Source: Cymbomonas tetramitiformis (taxonomy: Eukaryota; Chlorophyta; Pyramimonadophyceae; Pyramimonadales; Pyramimonadaceae). Taken from it: 64,000 bases of DNA. Both the position numbers and the translations under genes were made by a program. Under the pieces are notes generated by a model. It ran no database searches, was not told where the DNA came from, and saw nothing but the letters and a program-made list of their open reading frames with translations. The stretch covers positions 1 through 64,000 of the forward strand of contig LGRX02035481.1 of assembly GCA_001247695.2 (NCBI GenBank), in the 5' to 3' direction. Below are positions 19,349 to 44,545 of the stretch, one piece after another (position 1 is the first letter of the stretch; each line of letters opens with the position of its first letter).

Positions 19349-19776
19349 TCAAGATGATAGCCGGTCTGGATACTGGTCATCCAATGCGCGCATCATTTTT
19401 TTAGCGTGCAGCCGTTTCAATTGAAGATCGTTTGTGAGATCCTCCATGGTCAGCTCCGACAGCAGTAGTCCATTCACCTCATTCGCCTCGAATGCAGCGG
19501 AAGGAAGTCCGAGATCCTCGACAAATTTACAAACATCGTTTACAGTGTACGCACCCAGCGGTTTGGCACTAGTTGCAGGTGGCGGCGCGTCTCTTTGATT
19601 GGCGTACATATTTCGCAAGTTTGCTGCCGACTGTGCTTGAATTTTTTGCTTGATTGGTGCGGGAATTGCAGCATCCTCAGAATCATCTGATGAGGATGAA
19701 TCGTCTGACGATGATGAAGGCGGTGTTCTGGAAGCAGTTTTTTTCTGGCTCTGCTTTTTCTTAGCATTGTTCATCC
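19349..19776 (-). CDS. Last exon: SAM (sterile alpha motif) domain
   Basis: Begins after acceptor GCAACAG in phase 1 and ends at a TGA stop. It encodes about 142 residues: a Lys-rich start, a Ser/Asp low-complexity stretch (SSSSDDSSSSDDSEDAA), then about 60 residues matching SAM: YTVNDVCKFVEDLGL, ...F..NEVNGLLLSELT.EDL, and LKRLHAKKMM. SAM domains mediate homo- or hetero-oligomerisation, often under a membrane receptor. Read alone it also has an upstream in-frame ATG (19792), so a separate small SAM protein is the alternative. Confidence 0.8.
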
Positions 19777-22700
19777 CTGTTGCATCAGTCACACACGAGC
19801 AATTATCTACTAAGTCTCACAACAACAAAAAGTCGATATCTGGCTTTACAGCGGATGGAATGGTGATGCAATTAGACAACATGAAATGGTAGGGAAAATA
19901 GAAGAAGTTTAGGAATGCTCTCAGATGGCATGCCTCTCTAGTGGTTAAGAGTGTGCAGCCGGCATGCAGGCCGCTAGGATGCGACCGGGGCGAATACACA
20001 ACTCTCTCATGCAGCCGCCACCCTGCTCGTCTCTGGATTGATCTTATTTATCTGCACTCTTGAGCACATACCGTGTTTCTGCATTGACTTAGCGGCAGCA
20101 TCATTATCCGCCAGCTCAATTCCAATTTTGTCTGGGCCAAGGGGATCCTCCTGGCCGAGCGGGTTGTCGTAACTCTTGAAGCCGTCTGAAACACTGCACC
20201 GTGGTTGCATTGCGATCGATGCCGGCTCCGGCATTGCCACCGGCACTTCATTATCGGAGTGCCGATGACCAGAAGGTGGTTCAATGTTGCAACCGCCTTC
20301 CACACCAAACTTGTCATTATCTGTTTATTGCACCCAGCGCCGCCCGCCCACGAAGCATACCATTCATCACACAGAACTACAGCACCGCTTCATCATGCAT
20401 GATGATATATGCTGTGGGGGCTAGACATCTCCATTACACCCAGCAGTTTGGGGGTAGACATATGATTTTATGTGTAGTTTCTTAGGGGATAGACAATTGA
20501 AAAATAAATCCAGATCGGGGGTAGACATTTCAATTATATTTAGATTGGGCCCATCAGTATAAGTGCGCGGATCCGATTCTGTTAAACGGTCGCAGTTACA
20601 CATTCGATTGTCATTCAGTAAATAGCCTGATACACATGCACACCAAATTCTATGGTGGGTACGGCGGCTCGATACAGCATGTACTACGCGACGGTGAATT
20701 GCCGCAAACGATAAGTTCATTATCTTTCGAAGTCTTCTATCTGCAATCTGTTTCACGTGGGGGTTTCACTCGAGTACCGTTGCGCCATACAACAAGATAG
20801 ACACCTCCAACTCCTTTCCAAGACCACACTACCTACAATGCAAGTGGGACACGGCTACCACCACCCACGCGTGGTGTGGTGTGGGGCTCACAACGCCAGC
20901 ACTCGGTGGTCAGACCCCCCTTGACCCGAAAAGTATAGCTAGCGGAGGGAGGGAAACAGGTTCCGACCCTTGACCCGAAAAATATGTCTGCGGGGGTGAA
21001 GGGGGTCCGGGCGAGGGGGGGCTGAGGGGGGTCTTGAGCCCTCAGGCCTCCGGGCTGGGTTTAAACGCCTGCCCCCCTTCCCCCCCTTGTGCAATGGATC
21101 TCTCCCCCATTGCACATCACATTGTAGGTGCTATGCGCCACCACCAGGGAGGGCGGAGGTACTTTGTTGCCTCTGTCTCGTTGCTGTCAGGTGCTGTCCC
21201 AAGCCATGATTCAACGGAGGTGGGCCCTCTGCTTGCATTGGTCTATCCCGGATCGAGTGTTGCGGGTGGCACACATTTGGCGCGCCCTGTCCACCGGGCT
21301 GTGGGTGACTTTCGCATGGTTCGGCTGGATGGAACGTGCCTGTCTGGGTTTTCCTGCATGACCTTGGCACTAGGACTCCAGTTCTCCATCTGCTCGAGGC
21401 TCCACACCTGGCCCTTTGGGGCAGGTATGGATGAGATAAGATTCTTCTTCCGGGAGGAGTGCGTGTTCGGGAGCCTGGGCTGCAGGATACATATGCATGA
21501 ATGGTGTGGATAGAGTCGATGTTTGAAGCTGAGCAGCAAGGTGCAGCGTAGTAGGTCGCCGGTCAGGCATTCGCAATCTTGGGAGGCAACCGATGGCAGT
21601 GCTCATCGGTGCATTGGGAGGGCTCCTTTCTCAGCGGATAACAGCTCTACTCCATGCCGCTTGTGCCGTAGCTTGGTAGGCAACACCCATTTCGCCAAAA
21701 GGCACAACCTCAAACCAAAACCCTCCCAATACAGATAATGATGATGACTACGACTAATGAGAACAACGATACGCCGCCCAGGGGCGGAACAACTAGAACA
21801 ACTAACGAGAGCGAGTAGTAGAGCGAACAACAATATCGCGGCGAGCACATCAGCGATGAGCCGGGCGACAACTAGATCAGCGAGCATAGCAGCAAGTGTC
21901 ACACGGGCAGGCAGAGCTATGGTTGGGCCTGCGCAGGGAGCGAGCGCTCCGCGAGCATAACTGGCGTGAACAGGTCGATGAGATCGACGTTAGCGGATGA
22001 GACCGTCACGGGGCGGGGGGCAGGAGTGAGGGCAGGTGAGGCCGCAGCTGGGGTGACGACGAGGTCGGCAAGCAGAGTAGCGTGGGTCAGGTGGGCGGGG
22101 GTGAGCAGGTGTTTGATTACCAGGTGGAGAGGTCGGGCCGGCGGGTGGCGCAGCAGGCGGTGAAAACGGGTTACAGGAGTCAGGTAGCATGTAGGCGGCT
22201 CGGGCAGGGGGCACGGCAGCGTGAGCACTCGATGGAGGCGCTCTCTCTAAGGGGGGAGTGAGCAGGTGGGGGGAGCGGCAGAGGTAGGGGTACCACCTTG
22301 GCCCTTGAGCCAGGTGGTGGTGGAGGTGCAGCCTTGCTGGGTCGCCGGCTGCAGGTTTGGTGGTCAAGTGAATGCAGGAGTTTCCCGGGGGTGGTCCATG
22401 CTTGGGAGCCTTGGAGTGGGCGACATGTGGTAGTGCGATATGATGATGGGGATGAGGTGGGGTATGCTTTGGATGACGAGCAAGTGGAGTGGTTTGATTG
22501 GGGGGGAACAAGCGGGTGGCGGGCCTGGAGCTGCGGAGTTATCGACTCCCACGGCGCCCCAGAGAGAGGGGGCGGGCTCAGCTGCTTGGTGATGGACCCT
22601 CAGACGGTGAGGTATGGGCACGCCCCCTTTGCCGGAAGGTTTGGCTGCGTTGCTTGAGACACCCGGAGCTGTGTCGGTTTTGTCTGAGGCGGTGGTGGAG

Positions 22701-25700
22701 CCTGAGGGCCATGGGGGTGATGCGGTGAGTGGCTTGTGGCAGTTGGATGAGGCAGGTAGCGTGGGGGACAGGGGGCCTGAGGGACACTTGGGTGAGGGTG
22801 TGCAGCAAGATGTGGGCGGTGGAGGGAGGTGTGAGGAGGGAGGTGCGGTTGAGAATGACGACGGTGGCGAGGAGCGCGGCGACCTGAAGGCTTGGACAGC
22901 CCAGAAGCCCTTGCGTGTTTGGGGGGGTGCCTTCGAGGACCACGGTGGCGCTGACGTGCGTGGCCAGCCAAAGCAGGTGGGTGTGGCGGAGAGGCAGGCA
23001 GAGGGGGGTCGGGGAAGTAAGGGTCTCTCCCGCAGGCGTATTGGAGGCCTTGAGCACGCCACGGTCCTCACCGGGGAGGGAGCGGCAGGCATTTGTAGGG
23101 CCGCGCTTCCAGCAGGTAGGTGGTGAGGGGTGCGGCCATACAGTATCATGAGCTGTATGCCGCCCACAGACATCATAGCGGCCGATGGTGAGGCTGCCAC
23201 GTTCTCTCGGATCTTTTGTCCGATGATCCTGGAAGCAGTCGGGTGGGAATCTGCGTTTCCGGGCTTGCCAAGGGTTGCTGAATGGACTGCGCTGGCAGGA
23301 AGGATGTGTGACGTTTAATTTTCCACGCACGGCGGCGGCAGGAGGAGCTTATTGTGCTTGATCAGACTGTGAGGCAGGAGATCCAGCTAACATGGTAGCG
23401 GCTGCCCGGCGGGAGCTGAGTTCGCTTGGACGCTTGCCGGAGGCGGAGGGGAGCAGGGGGTACACGTGGCCTCGTGGGTCGGAGCTGGTGGGGCCCCGGA
23501 TTCGCTTGTGCTACATCAACGACAGCCGAGGGGCGTGGGTGGGGGTGGTGACGGAGTACGTTTCCGGGCCACGTGGCTCGCACCTTGTGCAGTTTGACGA
23601 TGATGGCAGCTAGCCAGTGAACCTCATCAGCTGCAGGTACGCGGTTGAGTACCTCTCCGTCCAGTGACGGCGAGACGGTGTTATCGCGGCGGGAGAGACG
23701 AGGCCGTGAGTCGGGCAGGCGGTCCCCGTGTCACCATGCCAGCCCGGATGGGGCAGGCTCTGCTCCGTCCCATGGCAGGCAGCCCCGGACCTGGTGAGGT
23801 TCGGGGCGTCCAAAACGAGACTGTGCCGGAGGCATGTGAGACCCCTGCGGTGGATGGGGGAGTAGAGGAGGGTGTACGAGTGGAAGAGGTTTGTTTGCCT
23901 GTGGGGGAGGCAGGACTCTATCTTGCCCGAGGCATGTGAGGCCCCTGTTGTTGAAGGGGGAGAAGGTGGGGAGCACGCCCTGCTCACACCATCGGCGCTG
24001 GAGGCGTACCTGAGAGGGGCTAGCAGCAGCAACACACACATGGTCACGAGGCAGGCAGTGGATCGCGACTTGAGTGCCGAGGAGCTGCGGGTGCTGGACA
24101 GGGTCCTTTTGAGGCCGGAGCAGGTGGTATATGATAGGGCGCAAGCGTTCCTTGGAGTGGGGGAGTGGGCAGACCATCCTATTGAAGAAGGCGCCGTGCA
24201 AGCAGCATTCAATGCGGGGTTGGTCGGGGATGAGGGTGTCTTGCTGGCCCCACCGCCGCTTAGAGAGGCCATGTTTGAGGAATCGGTTCAGCATGCTAAG
24301 AGACTTGGGGTTGCAGAGGCGGCAACGGCATTGCCTGCGGAGGCTGCCTGAGCGACGTATGATGAGGTGGAAGAGGCTGGCGAGGGCAGACGTGGGTATG
24401 TTTGCAGTAGTGTGCCCCAGGTTGCTGACGGTTGACATTCCATCTGCCAGGTAGCCCTAAGGGTATGTTGGGGAGGCGTTCACGATGTGGCCGTGCAGGC
24501 ATCCCACCCACCAGACATGCGGTGCAAGATGGTTGATATAGGATGTCGCTTGTCCCTTGTGCCGTACTCGATTGCTTGCCGCACCTTTGGCGGGTGAGGG
24601 GCACAAGACAGCGACTGGTGGCCTCCCTTCCGCGGTGCATCGCTCAGCATCCCCAGCAGTGCGGCCACCGCAGACGCAGCTGTCACAGCTGTCGCAGCCA
24701 CTACCGGAATGGCCGCAGCAACAACAATGACATGCGCAGCAGGAGGCGCGGAAGCGGCAACAGGGGGAGCGGCGTGGTGTGGGGGCCTAGCTTCGTCGAC
24801 AGCGTGAGAGGCCGGGGGCGCGAGTGCTTATCCCAAGGATATGGCGAATGCGGAGGGGAGTGGCGGCTCATGACAGTGCCCCTCCCCCAGGGGAGGACGG
24901 CCACGCATTCAGGTGTCTGGTTTGCTCTGAGAGGACTGCCCCCCACCCAGTCCAGATGGCCCGTCCTTTGTGGCACACCCACCGGCCAGATGACTATGCA
25001 GGGGTGGACTTGCCGGCATTTGGGTGTGCGGTGTGCCCCTCCTGTGATGTGGCTTTTGCTTGCGGGGCGGAGCTGACTAACCACCATAGCACATGCCAGG
25101 AAAGAGGCAGCGGAGCCGGGACTGGCGGTGGGGCGACGGCGAACAGAGCGTAGCAACGGGTGGACTTGGTCAACCCGGCTGTAGCTGAGGCGTCGTGAGA
25201 GTGACTGCGGAGTCTCCCGCTCTCAGAGATCTATGCATGCCCATTTTCATATGCCCGGCATGCCCCGAAGCATGCGAGAAATGAGTTGCTGGTATCATGA
25301 GGTGGGTGATGCGCAGTCTTAGTGAGGATAATGATGATTTTAGGCGGTTGCTGGCTGTGGCGCCGCGGCTCTTGCTTGCTCCGTCCCCAGCCCGGGGCTA
25401 GGAAGAAGTTCATTCCTGCGGAGCTTGTGCAGGAGAGGGTTGCGAGGATGTGTGTGGGTGAATGGGATGCCCTCTATCGGGTAGAAGATGGAGCACCCGC
25501 CATCAAGCACGCATGTGCGCAGCTTGTGTCTAATAGGGTGCCCGGATCGATCCTGCCTTGGCTCATGGGTGCCTGTCTGGTTGCACTCCTCAAGCCTGGA
25601 GGTGGAGTGCGTCCTATCGCTTGTGGCGAGGTGCTGAGAAGGCTGACTGGCAAGGTGGTCTGTAGGCAGATGCGGATGCGCTTTGCGGCCCATTTTGGGG

Positions 25701-28700
25701 CGCCATCGGAGGAGGGAGCTGCTTCATCGGCGGCCCAGATGGGGGTCGGGGTGCGTGTAGGGCGGCGCGGAGGTGTGTGTGCATACGGTACAGGCGCTAA
25801 TTGGGACGATACCCTCTTGGTGTACCCTCCAGTTGGACTGCAAGAACGCCTTCAACACGGTGTGTACTGTAGGGGAGCGATTTACCAGGCGGTCTACAAG
25901 GACTTTCCCGAGCTGCTGAGCATGACATAGAGCTGCTTCCGCAGTGATGCGCAGCTTGGCTGGCGGGGGGCTAACGGGGAGTTCCATTGGGTGCACTCAT
26001 CAGCGGAGGGTACTCTGTCAGCAGGGGGACCCATTGGGTCCGTTCTTTATGGCAGCTCCATTGCATCCGGTGCTACGTGCTGTGCTGCGGGCGCACCCCG
26101 AGGTGTACGTGATTGCCTACCTTGACGACATCCACATTTTGGGTGAGCCGGACAGTGTGCGGGCGGCCTATGACACAGCGGTTCCCCTCCTTGTTGGGAT
26201 TGGGTTGGAGCCGAACGTAAAGAAGAGCGCCGTCTTTATTTAGCCCGGTGGGGACATGCGATGTTTTCAAGATGTGGTGGATGCGAATGGTGATCCAATC
26301 CCAGGTGTGTGCTGCTGGAGGGAATCAAGGTGCTGGGGATCCCATCCAGTGGGCTCAGACGCGTGGGTGGCGAGTCAATGCGTTGAGATGGCAAGCACGG
26401 CCGGAGCTACCCTACCCAAGCTGGGGAGGCTTAATGACCCACAGGTCCATCTTCTACTTCTCCGGTTTTGCGCCCACCCCCGCTTCATGCACCTGGTGCG
26501 GGGTGTCCAGCCCCGCTTGCTCATGCAGGGTGCGCTTGAGCATGACTTGGCCATCCAGCGGTGCTTGAAGGAGGTGGCAGGCAGCCCATACCCGCTCGGT
26601 GGGGAGGCAGTAGCTCTGAGCCAACTGCCGACCCGGTGGGGAGGGCTTGGTTTGACCTCGGCTCAGCGTCTGGCCCCAGCTAGCGGGGTGGTTGGGGTCT
26701 TGGGCGCACGTGTGGAAGCGCACGACGGTGCTGTTTTTACTTGTGAGGGGCTTGTTCCCGCACCTGGGCGCGCCGGAGGGCACAGACACGGAGGGGAATC
26801 TACTAGTGGCGAGCTTAGTCTCGGCAATGCAGGATGTGAGGGGCGCGAGGAGGCGTGTTTTGGAGGCGGAGGCGAGCGATCGCGCGAGCACGTAGTGCCG
26901 GAGGGGTTACGGATCTTGGAGGAGGCACCTAGCTGGATGGGGGAGTTTTGGTGACACCCAACCGGCGAGTCAGAAAGAGCTAACAATTTGTCAACATGTA
27001 TGGTTCAGACTGGCTTTGGTTGTTTGATGTTGCAAATCCCACGGTCCAGGAGAGGCTGCTCAGCCTTTCTCAGGATGGCGCCACATGCCACCTGAATGCT
27101 TTGCCGGAGCAGGGGGGATTCCGTCTCAAGCCCATCGCCGCGGCGATCTCACTGTGTCTATCTGCAGCTAGGGGTCACTCTCCCCTTGATGTGGGAGGTT
27201 TCTGCAGTGGGGACGGACTGGAAGATGTGCATGTGGAGGGGAGGTGGACCATCCAGTTTGCTTGGGTACCACTACTTGACATGCAACCGGCGCGGGATGT
27301 TCACTTACCGTCACAGCGCTGTGCAAGACGTGTTGGTGGAGATGTTGCGGAAGGTGTTCGATCCAGCCTCGGTGAAGAAGACGCATGTGTACCATCGCAG
27401 CTATTCCCGTCGGTGGAGGCCGGACATCACGGTCCTCAACTACGACGGGCGAGGGCGGCACCTCATCATCGACGTGGTCGTCGGATTCCCGTGCGCCTCG
27501 TCCTTTGTGGGGAGGGCATCTCGGGAGCCATTGCATACTGCAAGGTGGAGGAGTGGCAGAAGGTTGCCTTATATATATGGCGACGTCTCTTCGCATAGGC
27601 TGGTGCCTTTTGCGGTGGAGGCATTTGGGGGGTTGGATGGGTGCGCAGGCCAAGAAGTTCCTGGAAGAATGCGTGGAGCAACGCCAAGATCGGCGGCTTG
27701 GTCCCGAGATCATTTCTGCGACGTGGTACACCCCGACGTGCATGTCGTACTGGGGGCAGAAGATCATGATCGCGCTTCAAGGAGCACAAGCCTTCGGGCT
27801 GCACAGCAGAGCGCTGGAGGATTTTCCGCAGTAAATTGCTTAGCGATGATCGAAATGATCAGTGAACAGAATGAGATTCGCCTTGCAGTTAGTAGCAAGG
27901 TCTCTGTCTCGAGATGTTAGGAGATTTCTTGTGGGATTTGGTGCGTGTGCTTGGACCTGTAGATAGGAGTTATCCTTCTTGGCTTGCTTTTGGACCTTTG
28001 GACTGTTGCACTCACGCAAGGATATTCCTGTATAATCCTGTATAATCCTGAAATTTCAGGATTATACAGGATTATACAAGATCATACAGGATCATACAGG
28101 ATCCTGCGGCGCTTGCCTTAGGATCCTACAGGATCTTGCGGTGTTGGCCTTAGGATCATACGGGATCCTGTGGTGCTTTACAAGATCCTAATTTGTGGCT
28201 CTAGCATCTTAAGTCGTGCTGATAAGTTCGTGCAGGAAATTGATGTTGGCGGATAAGTTCCTACGAATAACTGAGCTTATAAGCTCAATCAATGGACGGC
28301 ACTATCACTCATAAGGCAGGGATCTTGCAGGAACTTAACATGAGGTAGCTAAGATCTTGCAGGAACTTGACAAGCGAAGCTAATATCTTGTAGGAACTTG
28401 ACAAGGGTACCCAATATCTTGCAGGATTGAACCCTTTGAACATTTATTCTAAAATAGCATTGCAATTCAAATACCCCCCTGACCCGAATCCTTAAAAGTA
28501 TATCTAAGGGGGGTCCGACCCCCCTGTTCACCTGTACTGAAATAAGATCTAGCATCGATGCTCTTTTACTGATAGGCGCGATTCTTCTGAAGGTAGGGGG
28601 TCACGCCAGGCGCACCTGTACTAGTATAATTGCGCCTGGCGCACTTATACTGAAATCGGTACACATATATATGTGCACCGCGCACCTACACTATAATATA

Positions 28701-31700
28701 TGTAGCTAAGTATATACATATATATATATACATACAACAAACGTTGTTTACATATATATATATGTATACTTAGCTACATACCCAATTACGCATGCCGGGG
28801 ATGAGAGAATTCAGCAATCAGCATACACTTACATGTATGTGTTTTCTGTGCTAATAACTAACGGTAGACTTCCTTGCTTGGTGACACTATGAAAGTACTC
28901 AAAAGATAATGAAATAATTGGAAACAGTTAGGACAATCTGCGCGCATCCAATGAAGCTGCCGGCGTACCCTGCACCGCTTGCCAGTCTGCATGCATGCAT
29001 GTATGATTGTGTGTACGTGGATCGAGAAAGTGTGACGTGTATCCATGATGTGCAATATACATGCAAACGTAGTGTGCAATATAAACTCAAACGTGATATA
29101 CAATATAAATGCAAATACAACGACTCCTGCCTTCTACATCTGTGGCAAAAATCCTGGACTGAGGAATCCCCTAAACAAATGATAAGTTGATCACGCACCT
29201 TTCTTTTTGACTTTTTGTCGCCGATACATTACAAGACTGCCGATGATGCAAATTGCCATAAATGCTGCAGCAACGCCGCATACAATTCCTACCACCGATG
29301 AGCCATTATCCGCATCATTCCCGCCACTATCGTCATCGCTATCAGTTGATGAGGAAGTATCAACATCCAAGACTAAATCGCCTCGATATGTTTCCACTGA
29401 TGACGCCTCTGGATCCATTGTCAAGCCGGTATTTGGCAGCCCATTTGAAAAAGCTGTCTCTGCCAAAACTCCTGTAGAATTATTTTACACAGACAAACAA
29501 TAATTCACTGTAGTCTGCTCAAACTCAAGTGATTGGCACTCAAAGATACCACTATGTGACACAAATGTACCCATTCAGCGAAGTTTGCTTCCATGCATGC
29601 CACATATAGCGATCGAATAATGTAGATATGCTTATTACCTGTGTCCGCACTATATTGCATGGCATCTTTTGCCTTGGCTGCTTCACTGGTGTGTGCAAAT
29701 CCAACCACTTCGACGGTGATAAGTACTACCAATGCATCCCGAATCTCTGCTAAAATCATTCTCTTTGCAGACGGAACTTCAGCATTTTCAGATTCAGAGA
29801 TCTCATTGGAAATATCTGAAATCAATGTTCTGCTTCCTGATATCCCAAGAACATCACTCACTGATTTCTGCATACAGTAGTCACCCAGCACCAGCAGAAT
29901 AGTGTCAATCTTATACCCGCCCGCTTATTACTTCTGGTTATTAGCACACTGGTAATTATAATAATATGAGATGCTATTATGTTTTCAGCAAGAGCGAGGT
30001 AAATGGATGTTACCTGGCAAATGCCTTTGGCGGAGATTTCATCAATTTTTTGTACCATATTAGCCATATAGCCACATAGCCATATTACAGTCATGTTAGC
30101 CATATAGCCACATATAGCCACACACTGAACGGCATGAGATCGGCCAACAAAAGCCAGCCCACCATCATCCCAGTGGATGTGAGAAGCAAATCAGGAGCAG
30201 GGCGGGGCCGTGACAAGATACCACAAACTCATACATGTTCCCAACCCTGATGCAAAGCAGCATGGAAAGATGAAACGATGTGACCGATCATCGCCCAACA
30301 ATTGTTGGTCTCTGGGTAACGGAGTAAGCGGACCCTGCTGGCATGCCCCCCAGTGGCTCCCGGTCGATGGATGGGACCTGTTGGTCCATGGTTATGTCAT
30401 GAATGCAGTCACACCACACAGCATGGACACCCCATGTCAAAAAGGAAACATGCGGGCACCTAAGTGCTCCCCACAAAATTCAAGGGAGAACACAGAAGGT
30501 GTACATCACCACCTTCTGCCTCTCCTCGCAGCACGACAGACGAATCTACCGAGCTCTCCAAGAGGCAGTGCCCGCCAGAATGGCACCACAGGGATAACCG
30601 CCTCCCAAAACCCACTTCCACCCGGCGGTCGTCCCCGTTCACAGCGATCCGTCAGTACTTCATATCAAGGTCAAAGAACGCAAGTCCCCCGGCATGTGTA
30701 ATAACCATGAGCACTGTACACGGAGAGGGAGCTAGCGTCAGACGAATCCAAGACACTCCCAAAAAGCGAGCCGTAGACGAATCCCCGACGCACTCAAAGA
30801 GGCAGTACCCATCAGAAGGGTACCACAGGGACAGCCACATCCCATCATCCAAATCATTCCAGTGGCCGTCCCCGTTCACAACGAGATGCCAGTACCCCAT
30901 AAAGTGGGTATCGATCACCAGTCCCCCGGCAGGTGAAAAAGCCCCAAGGCACTGGACAAAAATAGAGCCAGCCGCAGACGAATCCCCGACGCCCTCAAAG
31001 AGGCAGTACCCGCCAGAAGGGTACCACAGGGACAGCCACATCCCATCATCCAAATCATTCCAGTGGCCGTCCCCGTTCACAGCGATCCGCCAGTACCCCA
31101 TAACGTGGCCGCCACAACCAGTCCCCCGGCAGGTGAAAAAGCCCCAAGGCACTGGACATAAATAGAGCCAGCCGCAGACGAATCCCCGACGCCCTCAAAG
31201 AGGCAGTACCCGTCAGAAGGGTACCACAGGGACAGCCACATCCCATCATCCAAATCATTCCAGTGGCCGTCCCCGTTAACAACGAGATGCCAGTGCCAGT
31301 ACCCCATAAAGTGGGTGTCGATCACCAGTCCCCCGGCAGGTGAAAAGCCTCAAGGCACTGGACATAAATAGAGCCAGCCGCAGACGAATCCCCGACGCCC
31401 TCAAAGAGGCAGTACCCGTCAGAAGGGTACCACAGGGACAGCCACAATCCCATCATCCAAATCATTCCAGTGGCCGTCCCCGTTCACAACGAGATGTCAG
31501 CACCCCATAACGTGGCTGTCAACCACCAGTCCCCCGGCAGGTGAAAAAGCCCCAAGGCACTGGACATAAAAAGAGCCAGCCGCAGACGAATCCCCGACGC
31601 CCTCAAAGAGGCAGTACCCGCCAGAAGGGTACCACAGGGACAGCCACATCCCATCATCCAAAGCACCCAAGTGGCCGTCCCCGTTAACAGCGAGATGCCA

Positions 31701-34700: not shown

Positions 34701-37700
34701 AAGTGGGTGGCGTTGGGCTGCTGGCGGAGGGCGTGTGAGAGGAGGCATGGGCCCGGACCTGGATCAGGGGGAGGCGGACCGACGGGAAGGGGCGGAGGGG
34801 TTCGCGCTGATGGACAGAGCGTGGGAGGGCGTGTTCGAGGAGACAGACTATGCTACGCAGGATGGATTTGGCGGTGGGACGCAGGAATCTGAGGGAGCGC
34901 AGCGTGAGCGGTCTAGGCAGGCTTCCGGTGGGGCATGCGAGGCAGGCGCGATGGCATCGAGGCTTTTGGAGAGCATGGAGGATGTGCGGCGGGAGGCGGA
35001 GCATCTAGGCACTATGGAAGGTCAAGGAGGGGGCACCGCCGAGGCACAATCTGGAGGGGCGCGGGCAGGCATATATAGGCGAGCCCAGCCAGGCGGCGTC
35101 AAGTGTCGAGGATATATATCTTGAATGAGTGGATGGGATGACCTTTCGTCGCCAGGCCCGGAGGGTGGGGTCTATCTGGACTCAAGAGCAGAGTGGGGCC
35201 TCGCCGGAGCAAGCAATGGCCTTGGCGGAGGGAGGGGTGGCCTCCTTGATGAGGGCGAGCAGGCGGGTGGCCGGCCTTCTTGGGGGGCGGGGTTGATGGC
35301 ATGGGGGGAACTGATGATGAGGATGACCGGGGAGATGTGGGGAGGTCCGCGGGTGGAGTTGACACACGCCGGGCCCCTCAGAGCCCGGGGGCCCATCCCG
35401 GCAGCGATGACCACTTACAACAGGTTGCACGGCAGCATACGGCATCTCATCAGCTTCCGTGCCCACCGGGCGAGGTTGCTGGCCGTGCTGGAACTAACAG
35501 TGAGCAGCTGTCGGGAAGGCGACGACCGGGTGGTGAACTATCGGCCACCGGCAGGGCTTGGGACACACAGGCAACTGTGGGGATGGGACCCCAAGTAGGA
35601 ACAGTGCGGCGTGACAGTTACAGCGCAAGTGTGGAGCGCATTGCTCAAGTTCGCGGCCACCTCGCAAGGCAATCACAGCAAGGGCTTCAGTCACGGGGAG
35701 TTGGTGCTGGGGGTAGAGGGCTACAGGCGCAAGTCGGTGGCGGATGCGCAAGTTTGGATGAGGGCAACCCAGTTTATCATTCTCAGCCCCTTGGGACAGC
35801 GCTTGGGCATTCTGGCCGTGGCGTGGGTGGGCAAGCTCTCTTGAGATCAGGCTGTAGGGGGCAGCGGGGTGATGTGGGATGTGGGCTTGGTGGTGGAGGG
35901 GTGGCTAGATTGGCGGAGGTGAGCCGGCTCCAGAGACACAGCAGCAGTGCGCCGGTAGGACAGCCGCAGAGGGGCTCAGGTGGCCCAGTGAGGCTTAGGG
36001 AGCAGAGGGGTGGTCTTGCGCGTGGGCTTGGTGGCGGAGATATGGCTCGCGCAGCTCGGGAGGCAGAGATGAGCCGGCTTCAGGCACAAGGCGGCAGTGC
36101 CCTGGTGGTGCAGATGCAGAGGGCGGGGCTCAGGTGGCTCAGCGAGGCTTAGGGGGTCCCATTCTTCACTAGTGAGCTCCGGAGAATCCGGATGAGTGTC
36201 CTGAAGTGTGTGCTGAATCCTTTGATCCCCGGCGTGGGTACATAGTGCAGTCTTCTGTAGCTACGGGGTGCAAAAGGAGTCGCAAGGATACGCATACACT
36301 GAACGGCATGAGATCGCCCAACAAAAGCCAGCCCACCTTCATCCCAGTGGCTGGATGTGAGAAGCAAACCACAAACAGGTAGATAGGGCGGGGCCGTGAC
36401 AAGATACCACAAACGCATACATATTCCCAACCCAAATGCAAAGCAGCATGGAAAGATGAAACGATGTGACCGATGATCGCCAAACAACTGCTGGTCTCTG
36501 GGTTACGGAGTGAGCGGACCCCGCTGGCATGCATGCCCCCCAGTGGCTCACCGTCGATGGATGGGACCCGTTGGTTCATGGTTATGCCATGAATGCAGTC
36601 ACACCACACAGCATGGACACCCCATGTCAAAAAAAGGAAAACATGTGGGCACCGAAGTGCACCCCACAAAAATCAAGGGAAACACATACAGAAGGTGTAC
36701 TTCACCACCTTCTGCCTCCGCCTTGCAGCAAAGGCAGACGAATCCACCGAGCTCTCCAAGAGACAGTGCCTGCCAGAATAGCACCACCAAGGATAAGCAT
36801 ACACACTGAACGGCATGAGGTCGGCCAACAAAAGCCAGCCCACCGACCATCATCCCAGTGGATGTGAGAAGCAAATCAAGAGCAGGGCGGGGCCGTGACA
36901 AGATATATACCACAAATGCATACGTATTCCCAACCCAAATGCAAAGCAGCATGGACAGATGAAACGATGTGACCGATCGTCGCCAAACAACTGTTGGTCT
37001 CTGGTTACGGAGTGAGCGGACCCTGTTGGCATGCCCCCCAGTGGCTCCCGGTCGATGGATGGGACCTGTTGGTCCATGTTTATGCATGTCATGAATGCAG
37101 TCACACCACACAGCATGGATACCCCATGTGAAAAAAAGGAAACATACAAAAAAGGCATACACACACACACACACACACACATAGTGCAGTCTTCTGTGGC
37201 TACGGGGTGCCAAAGGATTCGCAAGGATAAGCATACACACACACTGAACGGCATGAGATCGGCCAACAAAAGCCAGCCCACCATCATCCCAGTGGATGTG
37301 AGAAGCAAATCAAGAGCAGGGCGGGGCCGTGACAAGATACCACAAACTCATACATATTCCCAACCCAAATGCAAAGCAGCATGGAAAGATGATACGATGT
37401 GACCGATCGTCGCCAAACAATTGTTGGTCTCTGGGTTACGGAGTGAGCGGACCCTGCTGGCATGCCCCCCAGTGGCTCCCAGTCGATGGATGGGACCCGT
37501 TGGTCCATGGTTATGTCATGAATGCAGTCACACCACACAGCATGGACACCCCATGTCAAAAAAAGGAAACATGCGGGCACCTAAGTGTCCACACAAAATT
37601 CAAGGGAAAACACAGAAGGTGTACATCACCACCTTCTGCCTCTCCTCGCAGCACACACACACACACACACCGAGGGCAATGACCGGGTGGTGAACTAACT

Positions 37701-40700
37701 GCCACCGGGAGGGCTTGGGACACACAGGCAACTGTGGGGATGGGACCCCAAGTAGGAACAGTGCGGCGTGACAGTTACAGCGCAAGTGTGGAGCGCATTG
37801 CTCAAGTTCGCGGCCACCTCGCAAGGCAATCAGCGCAAGGGCTCCAGTCACGGGGAGTTGGTGCGGGGGGTAGAGGGCTATAGGCGCAAGTCGGTGGCGG
37901 ATGCGCAAGTTTGGATGAGGGCAGCCCAGTGTATCATTCTCAACCCCTTGGGACAGCGCTTGGGCATTCTGGCCGTGGCGTGGGTGGGCAAGCTCTCTTG
38001 AGATCAGGTTGTAGGCAGCAGCGGGGTGATGTGGGGTGTGGGCTTGGTGGTGGAGGGGTGGCTCGATTGGCGGGCGGGGGTGAGCCGGCTCCAGAGACAG
38101 CAGCAGTGCGCGCCGGCAGGACAGCCGCAGAGGGCTCAGGTGGCCCAGTGAGGCTCAGGGAGCAGAGGGGTGGTCTTGCGCGTGGGCTTGGTGATGGAGA
38201 TATGGCTCGCGCAGATCGGGGGCAGGGATGGACCGGCTTCAGGCACAAGGCGGCAGTGCGGGTGGTGCAGATGCAGAGGGGTTTGGGTGGCTCAGCGAGG
38301 CTTAGGGGGTCCCATTCTTCACTAGTGAGCTCCGGAGAATCCGGATGAGTGTCCCGAAGTGTGTGCTGAATCCTTTGATCCCCGGCGAGGGTACATAGTG
38401 CAGTCTCCTGTGGTGACTGGGGAGATGTGACGGGGGAGATGTGAGGCGGCTTGCAGGTGGAGATGACACACGCCGGGCCCCTCAGAGCCCGGGGGCCCAT
38501 CCTGGCAGCGATGACCACTTACAACAGGTTGCACGGCAGCATACGGCATCTCATCAGCTTCTGTGCCCACGGGGCGAGGTTGCTGGCTGTGCCGGAACTA
38601 ACAGTGAGCAGCTGTCGGGAAGGCGACGACCGGGTGGTGAACTATCGGCCACCGGGAGGGCTTGATTGGGACACACAGGCAACTGTGGGGATGAGACCCC
38701 AAGTAGGAACAGTGCGGCACGCCAGGTGTAGGGCAAGTGTGGAGCGCATTGCTCAAGTTCCCAGCTTCCTCGCAAGGCAATCACAGCAAGGGCTTCAGTC
38801 ATGTGGAGTTGGTGCTGGGGGTAGAGGGCTACAGGCGTAAGTTGGTGGTGGCTGGGTGCGCAAGCTCGGATGAGGGCAAGCAACCCAGTTTATCATTCTC
38901 AGCCCCTTGAGACAGCGCTTGGACATTCTGGCCGTGGGGTGGGTGGGCAAGCTCTCTTGAGACCAGGCTCTAGGGCGTGTAGGGGGCAGCGGGGTATTGT
39001 GGGATAGATGTGGACTTAGTGGTGAAGGGGTGGCTCGATTGGCGGAGGTGAGCCGGCTTCAGAGACACAGCAGTAGATAGTGCGCCGGCAGGGCAGTCGC
39101 AGAGGGGCTCAGGTGGCCCAGTGAGGCTCAGGGAGCAGAGGGGTGGTATTGCGCGTGAGCTTGATTGGTGCATGGTGGAGATATGGCTCGCGCAGCTCGG
39201 GGGCGGGGCGGGCAGGGATGAGCCGGCTTCAAGCAAAAGGAAGCAGTGCGCTGGTGTTGCGGATGCAGATGGGTTCGGGTGGCTCAGCGAGCGAGGCTTA
39301 GGGGGTCCCATTCTTCACGAGTGAGCTCCGGAGATTCCGGATAAGTGTCCCGAACGAAGGGTGTGCTGAATCCTTTGATCCCCGGCGTGGATACAAATCA
39401 TAGTGCAGCTGGTCTTCTGCGGCTACGGGATGCCAGGGGAGTTGGTACATAGAAGGATAAGCACACACACATCGCAGCCGGTCTTCTGCGGCTACGTACG
39501 GGATGCCAAAGGAGTCACACAAGGATAAGCATACACACACGCACACGAACGTGCGCAAGTCGGTGGCGGATGCGCAAGTTTGGATGAGGGCAACCCAGTT
39601 TATCATTCTCAGCCCCTTGGGACAGCGCTTGGGCATTCTGGCCGTGGCGTGGGTGGGCAAGCTCTCTTGAGACCAGGCTGTAGGGGGCAGCGGGGTGATG
39701 TGGGATGTGGGCTTGGTGGTGGAGGGGTGGCTCGATTGGCGGAGGTGAGCCGGCTCCAGAGACACAGCAGCAGTGCGCCGGCAGGACAGCCGCAGAGGGG
39801 CTCAGGTGGCCCAGTGAGGCTCAGGGAGCAGAGGGGTGGTCTTGCGCGTGGGCTTGGTGGTGGAGATATGGCTCGCGCAGCTCGGGGGGCAGGGATGAAC
39901 CGGCTTCAGGCACAAGGCGGCAGTGCGCTGGCGGTGCAGATGCAGAGGGGCTCGGGTGGCTCAGCGAGGCTTAGGGGGTCCCATTCTTCACTAGTGAGCT
40001 CCGGAGAATCCGGATGAGTGTCCCGAAGTGTGTGCTGAATCCTTTGATCCCCGGCGTGGGTACATAGTGCAGTCTCCTGTGGCTACGGGGTGCCAAAGGA
40101 GTCGCAAGGATAAGCATACACACTGAACGGCATGAGATCGGCCAACAAAAGCCAGCCCATCATCATCCCAGTGGATGTGAAAAGCAAATCAAGAGCAGGG
40201 CGGGGCCGTGACAAGATACCACAAACACATACATATTCCCAACCCAAATGCAAAGCAGCATGGAAAGATGATACGATGTGACCGATCGTCGCCAAACAAT
40301 TGTTGGTCTCTGGGTAAGCCACACACTGAACGGCATGAGATCGGCCAACAAAAGCCAGCCCACCATCATCCCAGTGGATGTGAGAAGCAAATCAGGAGCA
40401 GGGCGGGGCCGTGACAAGATACCACAAACTCATACATGTTCCCAACCCTGATGCAAAGCAGCATGGAAAGATGAAACGATGTGACCGATCATCGCCCAAC
40501 AATTGTTGGTCTCTGGGTAACGGAGTAAGCGGACCCTGCTGGCATGCCCCCCAGTGGCTCCCGGTCGATGGATGGGACCTGTTGGTCCATGGTTATGTCA
40601 TGAATGCAGTCACACCACACAGCATGGACACCCCATCACACACACACACACATCACTCATCAAGTTCGCAGGTAGCTCGCAAGGCGATCAGTAGTGCGAG

Positions 40701-42080
40701 GGCTTCAGTCTCACAGTGTTGGTGCTGGGGGTAGAGGGCGGCAAGCACAAGTTGGTGGTGGGTGCGCCAGAGGTGGGTTGGCTTCAGAGGCGCAGCATAC
40801 AGTGCTCCGGTAGGGCAGCCGCAGAGGGATTCAGCGGGTCATGCATGTGGGGCTCGCTCGGGGAGCAGAGAGGTGGCCATGCGCGTAGGCTTTGTGGTGG
40901 AGACAGCGCGGGCATTATGGTTGAATAGACTTCAGCGGCACAGCAGTAGCGTACCGATGGTGCTAGGGCAGAGGGTCTCAGTTGTCTCAGCAAGGCTTAG
41001 GGGGTCCCATTCTTCACGAGTGAACTCCGGAGATTCCGGATGATAGTGTCCCGAAGTGTGCGCTGAATCCTTTGATCCCCGGCGTGGGTACATAGTGCAG
41101 TATCCTGTGGCTACGGGGTGCCAAAGGAGTCGCAAGAATACGCATACACATACATACTGAACGGCATGAGATCGGCCAACAAAAGCCAGCCCACCATCAT
41201 CCCAGTGGATGTGAGAAGCAAATCAAGAGCTTCTCAGCCAGTCATCATACTTATGGAATCTACCCGATCCGAGTGGGCGTTTTGTGCCTCGTTCGCACAG
41301 GCCGCACAGGGAATGTAATCAGGAGCATCATTCAAGAAGGGGGAGAGAGCCATGGGAGAGACTGGTGGGAGAAGAGGGGGTGAATGCGAAGAGAACGGGA
41401 GAGAGCAAAGGAGAGTTACCGAACCTCAAGATACCTAGACACAGACCCATGCCACAGCTTGACTGCCAACGGGACCCCCCTGCGGCCCTTCCGTGTTTAA
41501 TATACCGTTAGCCAAGGAGAGCTTAGCAGGATTCGAGAACTCTAGGCCAGTAAGCCAGAACTGCGCACCTGCACTTGATACCTTGGGCGCGGACTCGGCC
41601 TTGCTCTTGTGGGAAGGGCATATGGATGGTGGTTGCTTGGGTTGCGGGTGTGAAGAGGGGTATGCTCCGGTCTTTACTCCGGGTGTCTGTCGTCTGACAG
41701 CTCAATCAGCCTTCAGACTAGTGCAAAGGGGTAAGAATGAGAGAGAATAGTCGGAGCACACAAGGCCGGCCGTGAGTCATCTCGCATACACTGGATGGCA
41801 TGGGATCGGCCAACAAAAGCCAGCCCACCATCATCCCAGTGGATGTGAGAAGCAAATCAAGAGCAGGGCGGGGCCGTGACAAGACACCACAAGCGCATAC
41901 ATATTCCCAACCCAAATGCAAAGCAGCATGGAAAGATGATACGATGTGACCGATCGTCGCCAAACAACTGTTGGTCTCTGGGTTACGGAGTGAGCGGACC
42001 CTGCTGGCATGCCCCCCAGTGGCTCCCGGTCGATGGATGGGACCTGTTGGTCCATGGATACACATACATACATACATACA

Positions 42081-42116
<36 letters not shown>

Positions 42117-44394
42117 TATAGGTATGTATACAGTAGTGCACATATATACGCTCATCAGTAGTGATACGCAGATCTCAGATATTGCAATTTGTTAGCTGGA
42201 TGGATGGGTAAAATTGCATACCTTGAACACTACTTGTCTCTGAGCAGTAAAACCTTCTTGGTTGTATCCATATAGAGACATTACTGATCTCACTGAATAA
42301 TATCCAGTGTTGCCTTTGCTAGTGCAATAACCATTATCAACTGCCTTACAACAAGTTGCCGCCACGTCCCAAATACATAAGTTATGAGGCCATATCCCAT
42401 CGCATGCACCTTCTGATTCTTCCTGAACACAAAGCGAGTTATAACTGGTCGGAGGATTATGCGGATGATGCGGTGGACCGGGCGGTGGTGAGGGTGATGA
42501 GGGCGGTGGGGAGGGTGGAGGGAGGGGGGTGATGGTTGTGAAGGCGGTGGTGATGGTTGTGAAGGCGGTGGTGATGGTGGTGATGGGGGTGATTGTGGAA
42601 TGGGTGTCAGCAGTGGTGGAGATGAAACTTGCAGTGGTGGTGGGCTGCTGCTGGAGAAGGGTGGAGCTCCAATGCAAATGGATTCCGGCACACAGTGACA
42701 TCCAACTGCCAAATTCCAGGAAGTGTCTAAGTATTCTTTGTCCCATGGTCCCCATTTATTGGCCCAGACATACCTGCTCGATTCACAACATAATGGGATT
42801 GTTATTAGCACAACGAGGTTGAACGTCACAAACACAGGCTTCGGGATTAGATGGGAAATGACAAAAGTGAGGGATTTGTTCAGACATGCATGTATATATG
42901 CAACCACTTTGTGCATTGATATATATGATATATATATATCGATCTATATATGCCGATATTATGATTTGATGAGGTATGTATGCATCATGTGGCGTATGAT
43001 TGTATTGTGCATATTGATCAAGCACGCAACGGTGAGATTATTGAGCGATCGGTAGGACTAATGGACAAGCAACCTGCACATTGCGATGTGCAGTATAGTA
43101 GTGGCGCGCTCACTAACCCTGCACACAAATGGGCACTTAAAGTGTGGGCCATTACCCGGTAAAAGTGTCACCATCAGATTCACCAGATCCATCGTTTGCC
43201 CAGCCCAAAGAGGCAGTATATCCCATCTCGAATAATGAGTTCCTGTCCACATATAAATGTATGTGTATATATTAGTGCAAGTAAGATACAACACGCAGCT
43301 TAAAACGAGTAATACAAGAATAAAGATATACAATAATACATACATGCAGTTTTTATCAGATGAGCCACGTGGTATGCTCTGCACACCGCCGTTCAATGCC
43401 AATAGAAGTAACACATTGCTTGATTGCCAGGGAAGCTAGCTACGTACTCTATCTATCTCTTGAATGTTCTCCTGATATCTATATCTATAGATATAGATAT
43501 ATAGATAGTCTAGTGCTTACTCCTCATCATATGCGTACTTGATATCATGTGTGCCATCTCATGTGTGCAAGCAATGTTGGGGTACCTCAATCCAGATGTG
43601 AGAGCATACTCCAGATTATGTTTTTCACCGCAGCTGCCATATTCAATTTCAAACGCCTGATAGTCATCAGTGACTTCCACGCTTGTTGTTGCACTTAAGC
43701 TGCCTTTGATATCTGCGTGTAGGAAGACCTGTGAAAACAGACCCACCCACTATCCACTAATATACCTTAGCTATTATTATCGATTAATACCAATGGGCCC
43801 AACTTTGTTGCGGAGACAAGGGAGTAGGAATGGAAGGTAGGGGATTCTCTCGCCGGCCCCTCGCTCCCATCCCAACAATAGTGGGTTTAACAACACTACT
43901 TCGTTCTCCATTTGGTTATTTACTAATCACAATTATATATATATCTATACAAAAATATGCAATGCAGTTAAAACGCAAACGCATAATAGATAGGGTGGTT
44001 ATCTACATACCTCAGTAGTCAGGGTCGAGCTTGCTTCAGCAACGGCAAGTGCAGCAGAAGCCCAAATACCAATTGCAATATATGGTTTCAATGCTATATC
44101 AACAGCTGCAACCACTTCTCCCTGATGAAGTGTCGATCGATGGGTGCTATAGATTACGTCAGTAAAATGTCGAACGCTCGAAATTGAAGGTTCACAAGTA
44201 AGCATTACAAGTAAGGAGTAGTGGCCCCAATTACAATACAAATGATCTCGAGAACTCTCCGTGTATGTTTTGCATGCATGTATGGTATCATCATCATCAT
44301 CATCTATCACACTTATCAAAAGCTTATGTCACCTGGATGTTGGTAGGATGCGCAGTGTATGTGGTTGAACTGTCTTGAGCAAATGTGACTGGTC
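19349..44394 (-). CDS. Single-pass membrane protein with cytoplasmic SAM domain, giant introns (5' end unresolved)
   Basis: Nine minus-strand exons fit together by splice motif and phase: 44333-44394, 44011-44121, 43586-43728, 43156-43242, 42222-42906, 29639-29867, 29199-29471, 20072-20185, 19349-19776. Order in the protein: beta-rich extracellular segment, Cys-rich part, SPPP hinge, second Cys-rich part (SLCVQEESEGACDGIW), a helical segment, an acidic Ser/Asp stalk, one transmembrane helix, a tail and a SAM domain. The 42.2-29.9 intron (12.4 kb) is phase 0; the next two, 9.0 kb and 295 bp, are phase 1. Exon 42222-42906 carries two single-base frame disruptions that cancel out, so this allele or assembly is imperfect. 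The first exon needs one more base from upstream, so the gene starts further 5', possibly in the 46-51 kb locus. A surface receptor or adhesion protein is the inference; no ligand or family name is recognised. Confidence 0.65.
20072..20185 (-). CDS. Exon: juxtamembrane cytoplasmic tail
   Basis: 114 bp between acceptor TTTCAG and donor CACG|GTATGT, phase 1 to phase 1. It encodes GFKSYDNPLGQEDPLGPDK and onwards, an acidic segment without hydrophobic stretches, as expected between a transmembrane helix and SAM. Its phase matches the transmembrane exon 9 kb upstream and the SAM exon downstream. Confidence 0.65.
20186..22297. other. Intron DNA of the SAM gene, with an EGF-like scrap
   Basis: Part of the 9-kb intron. 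Near 20590-20690 (minus) there is a C-x-C-x2-GY-x2-N-D-x3-C pattern (CACVSGYLLNDNRMC) typical of the end of an EGF-like domain, without clear splice sites. 20860-21060 is G-rich. 21550-22290 is a purine-rich plus strand (AGCGAGCA-type words) that may be the 5' region of the LINE. No gene is supportable. Confidence 0.45.
22298..22510 (+). pseudogene. Tudor-like module 1
   Basis: The frame contains GRRLQVWWSSECRSFPGVV and HVVVRYDDGDEVGYAL, the pattern of a Tudor/Agenet-like barrel (G..V.VWW.....W..G.V..., V.YDDGDEE...L). Such modules bind methylated ligands or nucleic acid; in a LINE they might tether the element to chromatin. Assigned from the motif only. Confidence 0.5.
23395..23667 (+). pseudogene. 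Tudor-like module 2
   Basis: A second barrel-like stretch: GPRIRLCYINDSRGAWVGVV followed by HLVQFDDDGS, then a TAG stop, then NLISCRYAVEYLSVQ. The layout matches module 1 (strand, W.G.V, V.FDDG), with a nonsense change inside. Confidence 0.45.
23872..24351 (+). pseudogene. LINE ORF, helical N-terminal segment
   Basis: A 159-codon open frame rich in Ala/Glu/Leu (for example DLSAEELRVLDRVLL) between the Tudor-like modules and the zinc fingers. No family is recognised; it is included because composition and position fit the same decayed ORF. Confidence 0.4.
24824..25153 (+). pseudogene. LINE zinc-finger region
   Basis: Contains FRCLVCSERTA with histidines about 14-24 residues later (…HPVQMARPLWHTH), then FGCAVCPSCDVAF followed by LTNHHSTC. 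These are C2H2/C2HC-type fingers just before the RT, the position of the DNA-binding fingers of R2-like elements. The frame closes at 25153 before the RT frame opens. Confidence 0.6.
25322..26243 (+). pseudogene. LINE reverse transcriptase, frameshifted
   Basis: The first part has GACLVALLKPGGGVRPIACG (RT motif with the RPI signature). Motif A reads LDCKNAFNTV near 25832-25862 in a different frame, then RGAIYQAVYKDFPELL resumes the earlier frame, which stops at 25930. Motif B (QGDPLGP, about 26022-26042) and the catalytic YLDD (near 26115-26130) lie in a third segment ending at 26243. Key residues are present but are spread over frames, so no active enzyme can be made. Confidence 0.85.
26256..26954 (+). 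pseudogene. LINE post-RT (thumb/linker) region
   Basis: A 232-codon frame containing HLLLLRFCAHPRFMHLVRGV and QLPTRWGGLGLTSA. The LP.R.GGLGL phrase is common after the RT domain in non-LTR elements of several algae and plants. It connects RT to the endonuclease region. Confidence 0.65.
27096..27834 (+). pseudogene. LINE restriction-like endonuclease
   Basis: Contains YHYLTCNRRGMFTYRHSAVQ (Cys/His cluster) and, about 45 residues later, RRWRPDITVLNYDGRGRHLI then IDVVV, i.e. R-P-D...D, the PD-(D/E)XK core of RLE LINEs. The frame shifts near 27560; the last part is GAQAKKFLEECVEQRQDRR... ending at 27834. The endonuclease would have chosen the target site; here it is broken. Confidence 0.75.
27835..29198. 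other. Intron DNA with short tandem repeats and a hairpin
   Basis: No gene. 28021-28190 is built of CCTGTATAATCCTG / CAGGATTATACAGG words that are partly self-complementary, preceded by CACTCACGCAAGGATATTCC, which resembles the end of the foldback element at 15348. 28577-28660 has GCGCCAGGCGCA-type inverted words. 28795-29190 is unique. Confidence 0.55.
28699..28780. repeat. AT-rich inverted repeat (hairpin)
   Basis: Two arms of about 38 bp (TATGTAGCTAAGTATATACA... and ...TATGTATACTTAGCTACATA) around ACAACAAACGTTGT. It could be a small MITE or a cruciform-prone site. Confidence 0.7.
29199..29471 (-). CDS. Exon: acidic stalk and transmembrane helix of the SAM protein
   Basis: Acceptor TTCTACAG, donor AAAG|GTGCGT, phase 1 to 1 (273 bp). 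It encodes a segment beginning VLAETAFSNGLP, an acidic Ser/Thr/Asp stalk (STDSDDDSGGNDADNG), the hydrophobic helix SVVGIVCGVAAAFMAICIIG and a basic stop-transfer RRQKVKKK. The TGA after the donor lies in the intron, so the protein continues into the tail exon. Confidence 0.75.
29639..29867 (-). CDS. Exon: extracellular membrane-proximal domain
   Basis: Acceptor TGTATGCAG (phase 0), donor ACAG|GTAATA (phase 1), 229 bp. It encodes KSVSDVLGISGSRTLISDIS and a helix AEIRDALVVLITVEVVGFAH, then ADTG. The alternation of strands and helix next to the membrane is reminiscent of SEA-like folds, but this is only an impression. Confidence 0.65.
30610..31720. repeat. About 200-bp tandem repeat, five units, coding-like on the minus strand
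   Basis: CGTCCCCGTTCACA landmarks recur near 30641, 30868, 31068, 31268, 31477 and 31676, about 200 bp apart. On the minus strand the first two junctions keep one frame (67 residues per unit, NGDGHWNDLDDGMWLSLWYP then GYCLFEGVGDSS); later units shift frame. Family A units contain a diverged form (NGDGRWVEVGFGRRL...), so the array is an amplified piece of family A. Confidence 0.75.
31735..32060 (-). pseudogene. Reverse-transcriptase C-terminal fragment, protein end intact
   Basis: The minus frame contains AKYGIVTSQLHRFAERCVLW, then KGYHSRRLWGFLRRFM, and ends at a stop after EFGPS. The phrase (K)YG(V/I)(V/I)TSQLHRF..., a helix and then KGY.RR.L...FRRF is, in my memory, the C-terminal region of a retroelement RT lineage common in algae (Penelope-like or related). 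Only this end is present, next to family A DNA. Confidence 0.4.
42059..42122. repeat. CATA tetranucleotide microsatellite
   Basis: A run of about 12 CATA units followed by TATATATA, directly after a truncated family A copy and about 100 bp from the 3' end of exon 42222-42906. Confidence 0.9.
42222..42906 (-). CDS. Exon: Cys-rich ectodomain with SPPP hinge, two frame breaks
   Basis: Starts in phase 2 after CACAAAG and ends AAG|GTATGC in phase 0. It encodes CVCDVQPRCANNNPIM, then (other frame) YVWANKWGPWDKEYLDTSW and VGCHCVPESICIGAPP, a Ser/Pro hinge (QSPPSPPSPPPSQPSPPP), and, back in the first frame set, SLCVQEESEGACDGIW and CTSKGNTGYYSVRSVM. One surplus base near 42790 and one missing C in the C-run near 42530 are needed to read it through; their sum is zero and total exon length fits both flanking phases. 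Hydroxyproline-type SPPP hinges are typical of green-algal surface proteins. Confidence 0.6.
42907..44394 (-). CDS. Four short exons: beta-rich ectodomain of the SAM protein
   Basis: Exons 44333-44394 (GPVTFAQDSSTTYTAHP), 44011-44121 (GEVVAAVDIALKPYIAIGIW), 43586-43728 (VFLHADIKGSLSATTSVEVT) and 43156-43242 (NSLFEMGYTASLGWANDGSG). Junction phases are 0, 0, 2 and 2 and agree on both sides. Donors are GTGACA, GTATGT, GTACCC and GTAATG. Introns are 211-343 bp. The alternating hydrophobic pattern suggests beta strands; no named domain is recognised. Confidence 0.6.
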
Positions 44395-44545
44395 CTGCAT
44401 GTCAGGAATCCACGCACACCAACGTAACTATATATCAAATTCTATCTCACACTGGCATCACTGGCAGCAGCAATGGTTGATATAAAAAATGAATACAGTG
44501 ATAATATGTATACCGCCGCTTACATAACATTATGGGGGGGGGGAG

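Follow-up and report, generated by a model that had tools for sequence, protein, structure and literature searches.

SAM-based receptor architectures are best known from animals, and the locus described here raises the question of whether a green alga encodes one. A sequence-only reading of a single genomic stretch of 64,000 nucleotides (contig LGRX02035481.1, positions 1 to 64,000; hereafter the window) had proposed that nine exons between 19349 and 44394, spread over introns of about 9 kb and 12 kb, encode a membrane protein with a cytoplasmic SAM domain. The source organism, Cymbomonas tetramitiformis, has been described as a phago-mixotrophic, bacterivorous prasinophyte of the Pyramimonadales (PMC5741210; PMC10675990). 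Its published long-read assembly combines Nanopore and Illumina reads, with genes predicted by BRAKER2 from transcriptome and protein evidence, and the genome is reported to be tetraploid. We found that the proposed gene is real and had been incompletely drawn, being more complete than that reading had it, and that paralogues, a colinear and uninterrupted homologue, and the deposited model of one paralogue all lend good support to a type I membrane protein that spans the membrane once and carries its SAM on the cytoplasmic side.

Exon structure of the gene

All nine exons proposed earlier were recovered on the minus strand with GT-AG borders, as part of a model of the SAM-tail gene that comprises 13 minus-strand exons from 51,023 to 19,349 (5,885 bases, about 1,962 codons). 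Its features are given below, together with their support from the deposited gene model CYMTET_55049 and from a homologous open reading frame (ORF) on another contig of the genome, C24961.

e1, 50679..51023, minus strand: ATG and hydrophobic N-terminus, by eye a likely signal peptide
e2, 46684..49871, minus strand: 1,062 codons in an open frame; a series of repeated Cys-rich modules, followed by the first part of the ectodomain
e3, 46210..46363, minus strand: ectodomain; 38% to the C24961 ORF, E 2e-9
e3b, 45659..45722, minus strand: present in CYMTET_55049; 60% to the C24961 ORF, E 3e-9
e4, 44333..44394, minus strand: first exon of the sequence-only reading; reads PVTFAQDSSTTYTAHPTNIQ (PVTFAQDSS...); matches the C24961 ORF at E 0.003, a short piece
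e5, 44011..44121, minus strand: in CYMTET_55049 and the C24961 ORF
e6, 43586..43728, minus strand: in CYMTET_55049 and the C24961 ORF
e7, 43156..43242, minus strand: in the CYMTET_55049 reading and the C24961 ORF
e8, 42222..42773, minus strand: end of the ectodomain, SPPP hinge and Cys module; one frame change
12-kb intron, 29868..42221, minus strand: between e8 and e9
e9, 29639..29867, minus strand: ectodomain module; phase-0 join to e8
e10, 29199..29471, minus strand: acidic stalk, single hydrophobic helix, basic stop-transfer and phase-1 donor, from hydropathy
9-kb intron, 20321..29198, minus strand: between e10 and e11
e11, 20072..20320, minus strand: cytoplasmic tail NDKFGVEGG...SYDNPLG...; start corrected
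e12, 19349..19776, minus strand: Ser/Asp-rich linker, SAM domain and stop

The gene had been thought to begin at 44394, but this position belongs to an internal exon: the exon at 44333-44394, taken to be the first, has e3b (45659-45722) directly upstream, and the start lies at about 51,023, reached through the 1,062-codon exon at 46684-49871. The last 121 codons of that long exon match the C24961 ORF at 38% (E 3e-23), and both matches in a protein search with e2 were deposited Cymbomonas tetramitiformis proteins; the protein homologue searches scored the 7,989 to 7,996 candidates with most words in common. An extension of e3 to 46205 without e4 was considered and is ruled out by the support that CYMTET_55049 and the C24961 ORF give to e3b, e4 and e5. 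At the other end of the gene the tail exon had been started at 20185, where the window does offer an AG in the same phase, but this AG is missing in both of two paralogous loci (on contigs C15918 and C22047). The AG at 20320 is kept in all three loci, and CYMTET_45892, the deposited model of the C22047 locus, uses the equivalent start.

Phases out of e1, e2, e3, e3b, e4, e5, e6 and e7 are 0, 2, 0, 1, 0, 0, 2 and 2. The matching phases described earlier hold for the joins from e8-e9 to e11-e12, which are 0 (in the second frame of e8), 1, 1 and 1; they fail inside e8, where the frame breaks once. Three such agreements had been judged unlikely to arise by chance; each join agrees by chance one time in three and several sites are possible, and we dropped any strong claim from phase agreement alone. 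The phase argument is weak by itself, and it is the relatives of the gene that settle the exon joins.

CYMTET_55049 covers parts of 42222-51023, starting 18 codons downstream of the e1 ATG, and supports e3b, e4, e5, e6 and e7. It reads the Cys repeats of e2 in a different frame, leaves out the last stretch of e2 and the beginning of e3 (of e3 it holds the second part only), and ends inside e8 without a SAM domain, which counts against a one-gene reading; the model looks misannotated. The single frame change of e8 falls within the SPPP stretch, where six C follow one another near 42,527, and errors beside homopolymer runs are common in assemblies from Nanopore and Illumina reads. Because the SPPP stretch of the C24961 relative is in one unbroken open frame, the change in e8 is likely to be an assembly error or a recent mutation.

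Ectodomain and the join across the 12-kb intron

When the e8b-e9 protein was searched against the organism's own genome, seven places were returned, namely the two window exons and five on other contigs (C3584, C1886, C1993, C24961 and C12700; 27-32% identity). The e8b-e9 junction lies within one frame in all five of these contigs, the match in C1886 beginning 22 residues later. Ten exon pieces of the window match the single ORF on C24961 (647 aa in the fetched stretch) in their proper sequence, from e2-end through e3, e3b, e4, e5, e6, e7, e8a and e8b to e9 (E 3e-23 to 0.003); an eleventh match, of the tail exon to the SPPP part (E 0.002), is off-order and of low complexity. The proposed joining of exons over the 12-kb intron is upheld by this uninterrupted colinear ORF and by the shared junction frame. 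As for the intron itself, 94% of its DNA is shared with other fetched contigs (48 loci, 283 kb), 13 of the 48 loci being matched, and the corresponding figure for the 9-kb intron in the same set is 6%. Six ORFs of the long introns gave no Pfam match.

Five pieces of the ectodomain, which covered the Cys module of e8 rather than its first half, were scanned with Pfam and showed no family above cut-off; sub-threshold matches occurred in e2 and e9, and none in the other three. The best match to PF14843 (growth-factor-receptor-type Cys-rich repeats) reached 12.9 bits against a cut-off of 29.5 and is a resemblance only. A comparison of e2 with PDB sequences returned no match, and a structure model of the ectodomain (pLDDT 42.4, pTM 0.29) was too poor for a fold search. 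Algal proteins of the pherophorin type are hydroxyproline-rich and likewise have an SPPP rod between extracellular modules; the window protein differs from them in being membrane-anchored with a SAM tail, and its scanned Cys module is without a Pfam match.

Transmembrane exon, tail and the join across the 9-kb intron

The acidic stalk, hydrophobic helix and basic stop-transfer that had been read from the letters were located at 29199-29471 by hydropathy, the helix of e10 having a mean of 2.58 over 20 residues and being followed by six K/R. A strict scan for such transmembrane (TM) exons, requiring an acidic stalk, a hydropathy of 1.5, three K/R and a phase-1 donor, returned e10 and one other place on the minus strand of the whole window, with none on the plus strand and none within either long gap, which makes e10 more than a chance find. 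When the stalk was ignored, a looser scan picked up hydrophobic stretches at 21848 and 24704 in the 9-kb gap and another four in the 12-kb gap. The tail exon of both paralogues is directly upstream of the SAM exon and is itself preceded, at about 6 kb in C15918 and 4-5 kb in C22047, by a stalk, a single helix, basic residues and then a phase-1 donor. The claim that the exons are joined over the 9-kb intron is sustained by these two loci, which repeat the order TM-tail-SAM in phase 1, and by CYMTET_45892, which joins all three in one deposited model. The best match of the C15918 TM exon in the window is e10 (29343-29203, E 0.001), and that of the C22047 TM exon is elsewhere (E 0.022). At 29.4-30.7 kb of C22047 (L027) we also noted that a small part of the tail and linker exons is duplicated in tandem, both copies being used by the deposited model.

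Relatives of e8b-e9-e10 also occur with other endings. Among C3584, C1993 and C12700, the tail was followed to its end in the first two (L048 and L050), where the TM exon ends in a short, SAM-less tail of its own; because of these, the SAM tail is by sequence comparison one among several tails in the e8b-e9-e10 family. The dN/dS between the window and the two paralogues is moderate (0.51 and 0.29 for the tail, 0.53 and 0.53 for the SAM), and between C15918 and C22047 it is 0.19 for the tail and 1.29 for the SAM (e12). The moderate values, as well as the 1.29 between the paralogues, are counted against the explanation that we prefer below.

Identity, fold and charged faces of the SAM domain

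The earlier assignment of a SAM domain to the last exon was confirmed by a Pfam check, in which e12 matches PF00536 (SAM_1) at 33.2 bits, above the cut-off of 23. Its AlphaFold2 model has five helices and the SAM fold (pLDDT 80.6). The best 50 solved matches in a Foldseek search include the SAMs of Ph/PHC3, Scm, Shank2, SARM1 and DGK-delta, which are self-associating or polymerising, alongside SAMs that are not known as polymers; all have a probability of 1.00, with weak E-values (best 3.2e-3, none at or below 0.001). The Shank2 SAM is in addition a weak sequence match to that of the window. Shank, Polyhomeotic/PHC3, DGK-delta and SARM1 are cytoplasmic or nuclear proteins whose SAMs are near in fold to the window model, in which the mid-loop is acidic and the start of helix 5 basic; the window SAM, in contrast, belongs to a membrane protein's tail, and its self-association is a prediction.

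These charged faces recur in all three tail SAMs (window and two paralogues), with -6 to -8 in the mid-loop and +3 to +5 at the start of helix 5. Among the kinase SAMs described in the next section, nine of which were aligned from ten loci (L031 was left out), helix 5 stands at 0 or below in eight, and the ninth, L032, has +4 at a point where its sequence diverges. Judged by charge only, the tail SAMs could chain and the kinase SAMs could join them through the acidic face. These results are compatible with the earlier prediction of a receptor or adhesion protein at the surface that oligomerises through its SAM, since the SAM model is nearest to self-associating SAMs and ten TM-SAM-kinase loci are present in the genome.

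Related candidate receptors and SAM kinases in the genome

The SAM exon matched 14 places in its own genome, consisting of the window itself, the paralogues at 86% and 78%, ten places at 42-53% and one at 26%. A Pfam SAM_1 search of the genome returned 13 places, three of which are the window and the two paralogues. At L002:988-2073 and L006:1105-2136 a SAM lies within an open frame that, judged by eye, has extracellular-looking flanks, an odd site for a SAM.

The window and its paralogues share the tail and differ in what lies upstream. C22047 has a different Cys-rich module, and in C15918 (31.4-48.0 kb; L021-L022) an SRCR exon (117 bits) and a Cys-rich exon, with phase-1 borders, precede the TM exon. 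We infer, rather than observe, the SRCR-SAM join of C15918, because the SRCR and Cys exons are separated by an 893-aa ORF on the same strand. SRCR was matched at 18 places in the genome, none of them on the window's contig; of the contigs concerned, C15918 alone was also returned by the SAM searches. For Chlamydomonas reinhardtii, the number of genes with SRCR and/or C-type lectin domains is given as more than 30 (PMC8226300). Such proteins, from Chlamydomonas and Edaphochlamys, resemble the Cymbomonas paralogue with its upstream SRCR exon in being green-algal with animal-like receptor modules, but the passage on them mentions no SAM (PMC8226300), and the window's contig itself is without an SRCR match.

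Sequence with flanks was retrieved for the ten SAM loci at 42-53% and for three more (n=13). A match to the window's SAM is present in 11 of the 13, and in 10 of these 11 the open frame that holds the SAM also encodes a hydrophobic segment upstream of it, the exception being L041, which lacks one; a kinase match follows downstream on the same strand in all ten TM-SAM loci:

TM-SAM-kinase loci L029-L038: contigs C2724, C12885, C8268, C9445, C15113, C4379, C2349, C7007, C19755 and C8194

The TM, SAM and kinase motifs fall within one frame in six of the ten loci, and the ectodomain piece of L029 is matched by eight of ten. Pfam recognized a protein kinase in all but one of the five ORFs tested (the exception ends before the kinase) and in four of four deposited proteins. 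The SAMs of the kinase loci score below Pfam cut-offs, with one match reported (SAM_2, 13.7 bits, P0006), so that their designation as SAMs rests on similarity to the window's SAM. With the ectodomain-TM-SAM region of L029 as query, four proteins were retrieved, three from Cymbomonas and one in EukProt. The Eph receptor tyrosine kinases of animals are likewise surface receptors that cross the membrane once and end in an intracellular SAM. They have their kinase between TM and SAM, however, where the window gene has only the tail exon and linker and no kinase, and the order TM-SAM-kinase of the Cymbomonas SAM kinases is the reverse of that in Eph; no Eph-type ectodomain was found by Pfam in the window pieces scanned.

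Proposed function and alternative explanations

We consider it likely that the 13 exons belong to a single gene, that its product is a plasma-membrane protein of type I with one membrane pass and a C-terminal SAM domain, and that this SAM would drive clustering after ligand binding. After a cleaved signal peptide, the predicted protein would present Cys-rich repeats, ectodomain, SPPP hinge, Cys module and acidic stalk on the outside, followed by one helix and then, on the inner side, by a short tail with the SYDNPLG motif and the C-terminal SAM. Binding of a ligand at the ectodomain would gather molecules, and the acidic mid-loop side of one SAM may then meet the basic start of the last helix of another, giving head-to-tail joining and thereby clusters. 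These clusters could also admit TM-SAM-kinase proteins, the SAMs of which keep the acidic face, mostly without the basic one. Computation establishes the exon joins, the topology from hydropathy, the identity and fold of the SAM and the common tail; placement at the surface, oligomerisation, recruitment of kinases and any part in prey contact are inferred. The architecture is well supported, and the mechanism is plausible; the best reading would be a clustering surface receptor or adhesion protein, perhaps acting in prey contact.

The same exons could instead be divided between two genes, a receptor that ends after e10 in a very short tail (KVKKKGA, then stop) and a separate tail-SAM gene whose own TM exon lies elsewhere or has been lost. 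Such a division is suggested by C3584 and C1993, which hold a stalk, TM and complete SAM-less tail in one exon, by the length of the 9-kb gap and the two bare hydrophobic stretches in it, by the end of CYMTET_55049 short of e10, and by the C22047 TM exon, which is without a match to e10. We nevertheless regard it as quite unlikely, given that the strict scan offers no second stalk-TM-donor candidate in the 9-kb gap, that the C15918 TM exon finds its best window match in e10, that in both paralogous loci the tail exon is preceded by about 4-6 kb by a TM exon with its phase-1 donor, and that CYMTET_45892 joins TM, tail and SAM in C22047. It is also unlikely that the family is intact while the window copy is a decaying paralogue, i.e. 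a pseudogene: the frame change in e8, the moderate dN/dS and the spare copies expected of a genome reported as tetraploid would agree with decay, but the remaining exons are open with intact splice borders, and the change in e8 adjoins a C run in an assembly built from Nanopore and Illumina reads.

Two further explanations accept the membrane SAM protein as genuine and concern what its SAM is for. The SAM might be a docking site for one partner rather than a clustering module, in keeping with the many SAMs that are monomeric or bind a single partner and with the one-sided look of most kinase SAMs in this genome; we hold this to be tentative and somewhat unlikely, as all three tail SAMs show complementary charged faces and several of the nearest folds belong to self-associating SAMs. 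A far broader proposal, to which we assign a low probability, is a Cymbomonas-specific modular recognition system of phagocytic receptors that arose independently of animals. Ectodomains (Cys-rich, SRCR and others) would in that case be swapped by phase-1 exon shuffling onto a shared TM-tail-SAM cassette, the SAM tails would polymerise and recruit TM-SAM-kinase proteins via the acidic SAM face, and contact with bacteria would lead to clustering, signalling and finally engulfment.

On our preferred reading, i.e. one gene for a clustering receptor or adhesion protein, a SAM-based receptor architecture would be present in a green alga, and a family with swapped outer parts, a common SAM tail and matching SAM kinases would provide named candidates for prey recognition or adhesion. 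In the open-access papers searched, nothing spoke against the earlier view that such a SAM receptor architecture is undescribed in green algae, which is weak evidence. The analysis also corrects a truncated gene model.

Two other features of the window lie beyond the low-coordinate end of this gene. The plus strand at 7460-14029 carries an open frame of 2,189 codons from a Copia-type retroelement, in which a reverse transcriptase was matched and an integrase was matched below threshold, and at 16242-16694 on the minus strand, downstream of the SAM gene and on the same strand as it, there is an open frame of 150 codons.
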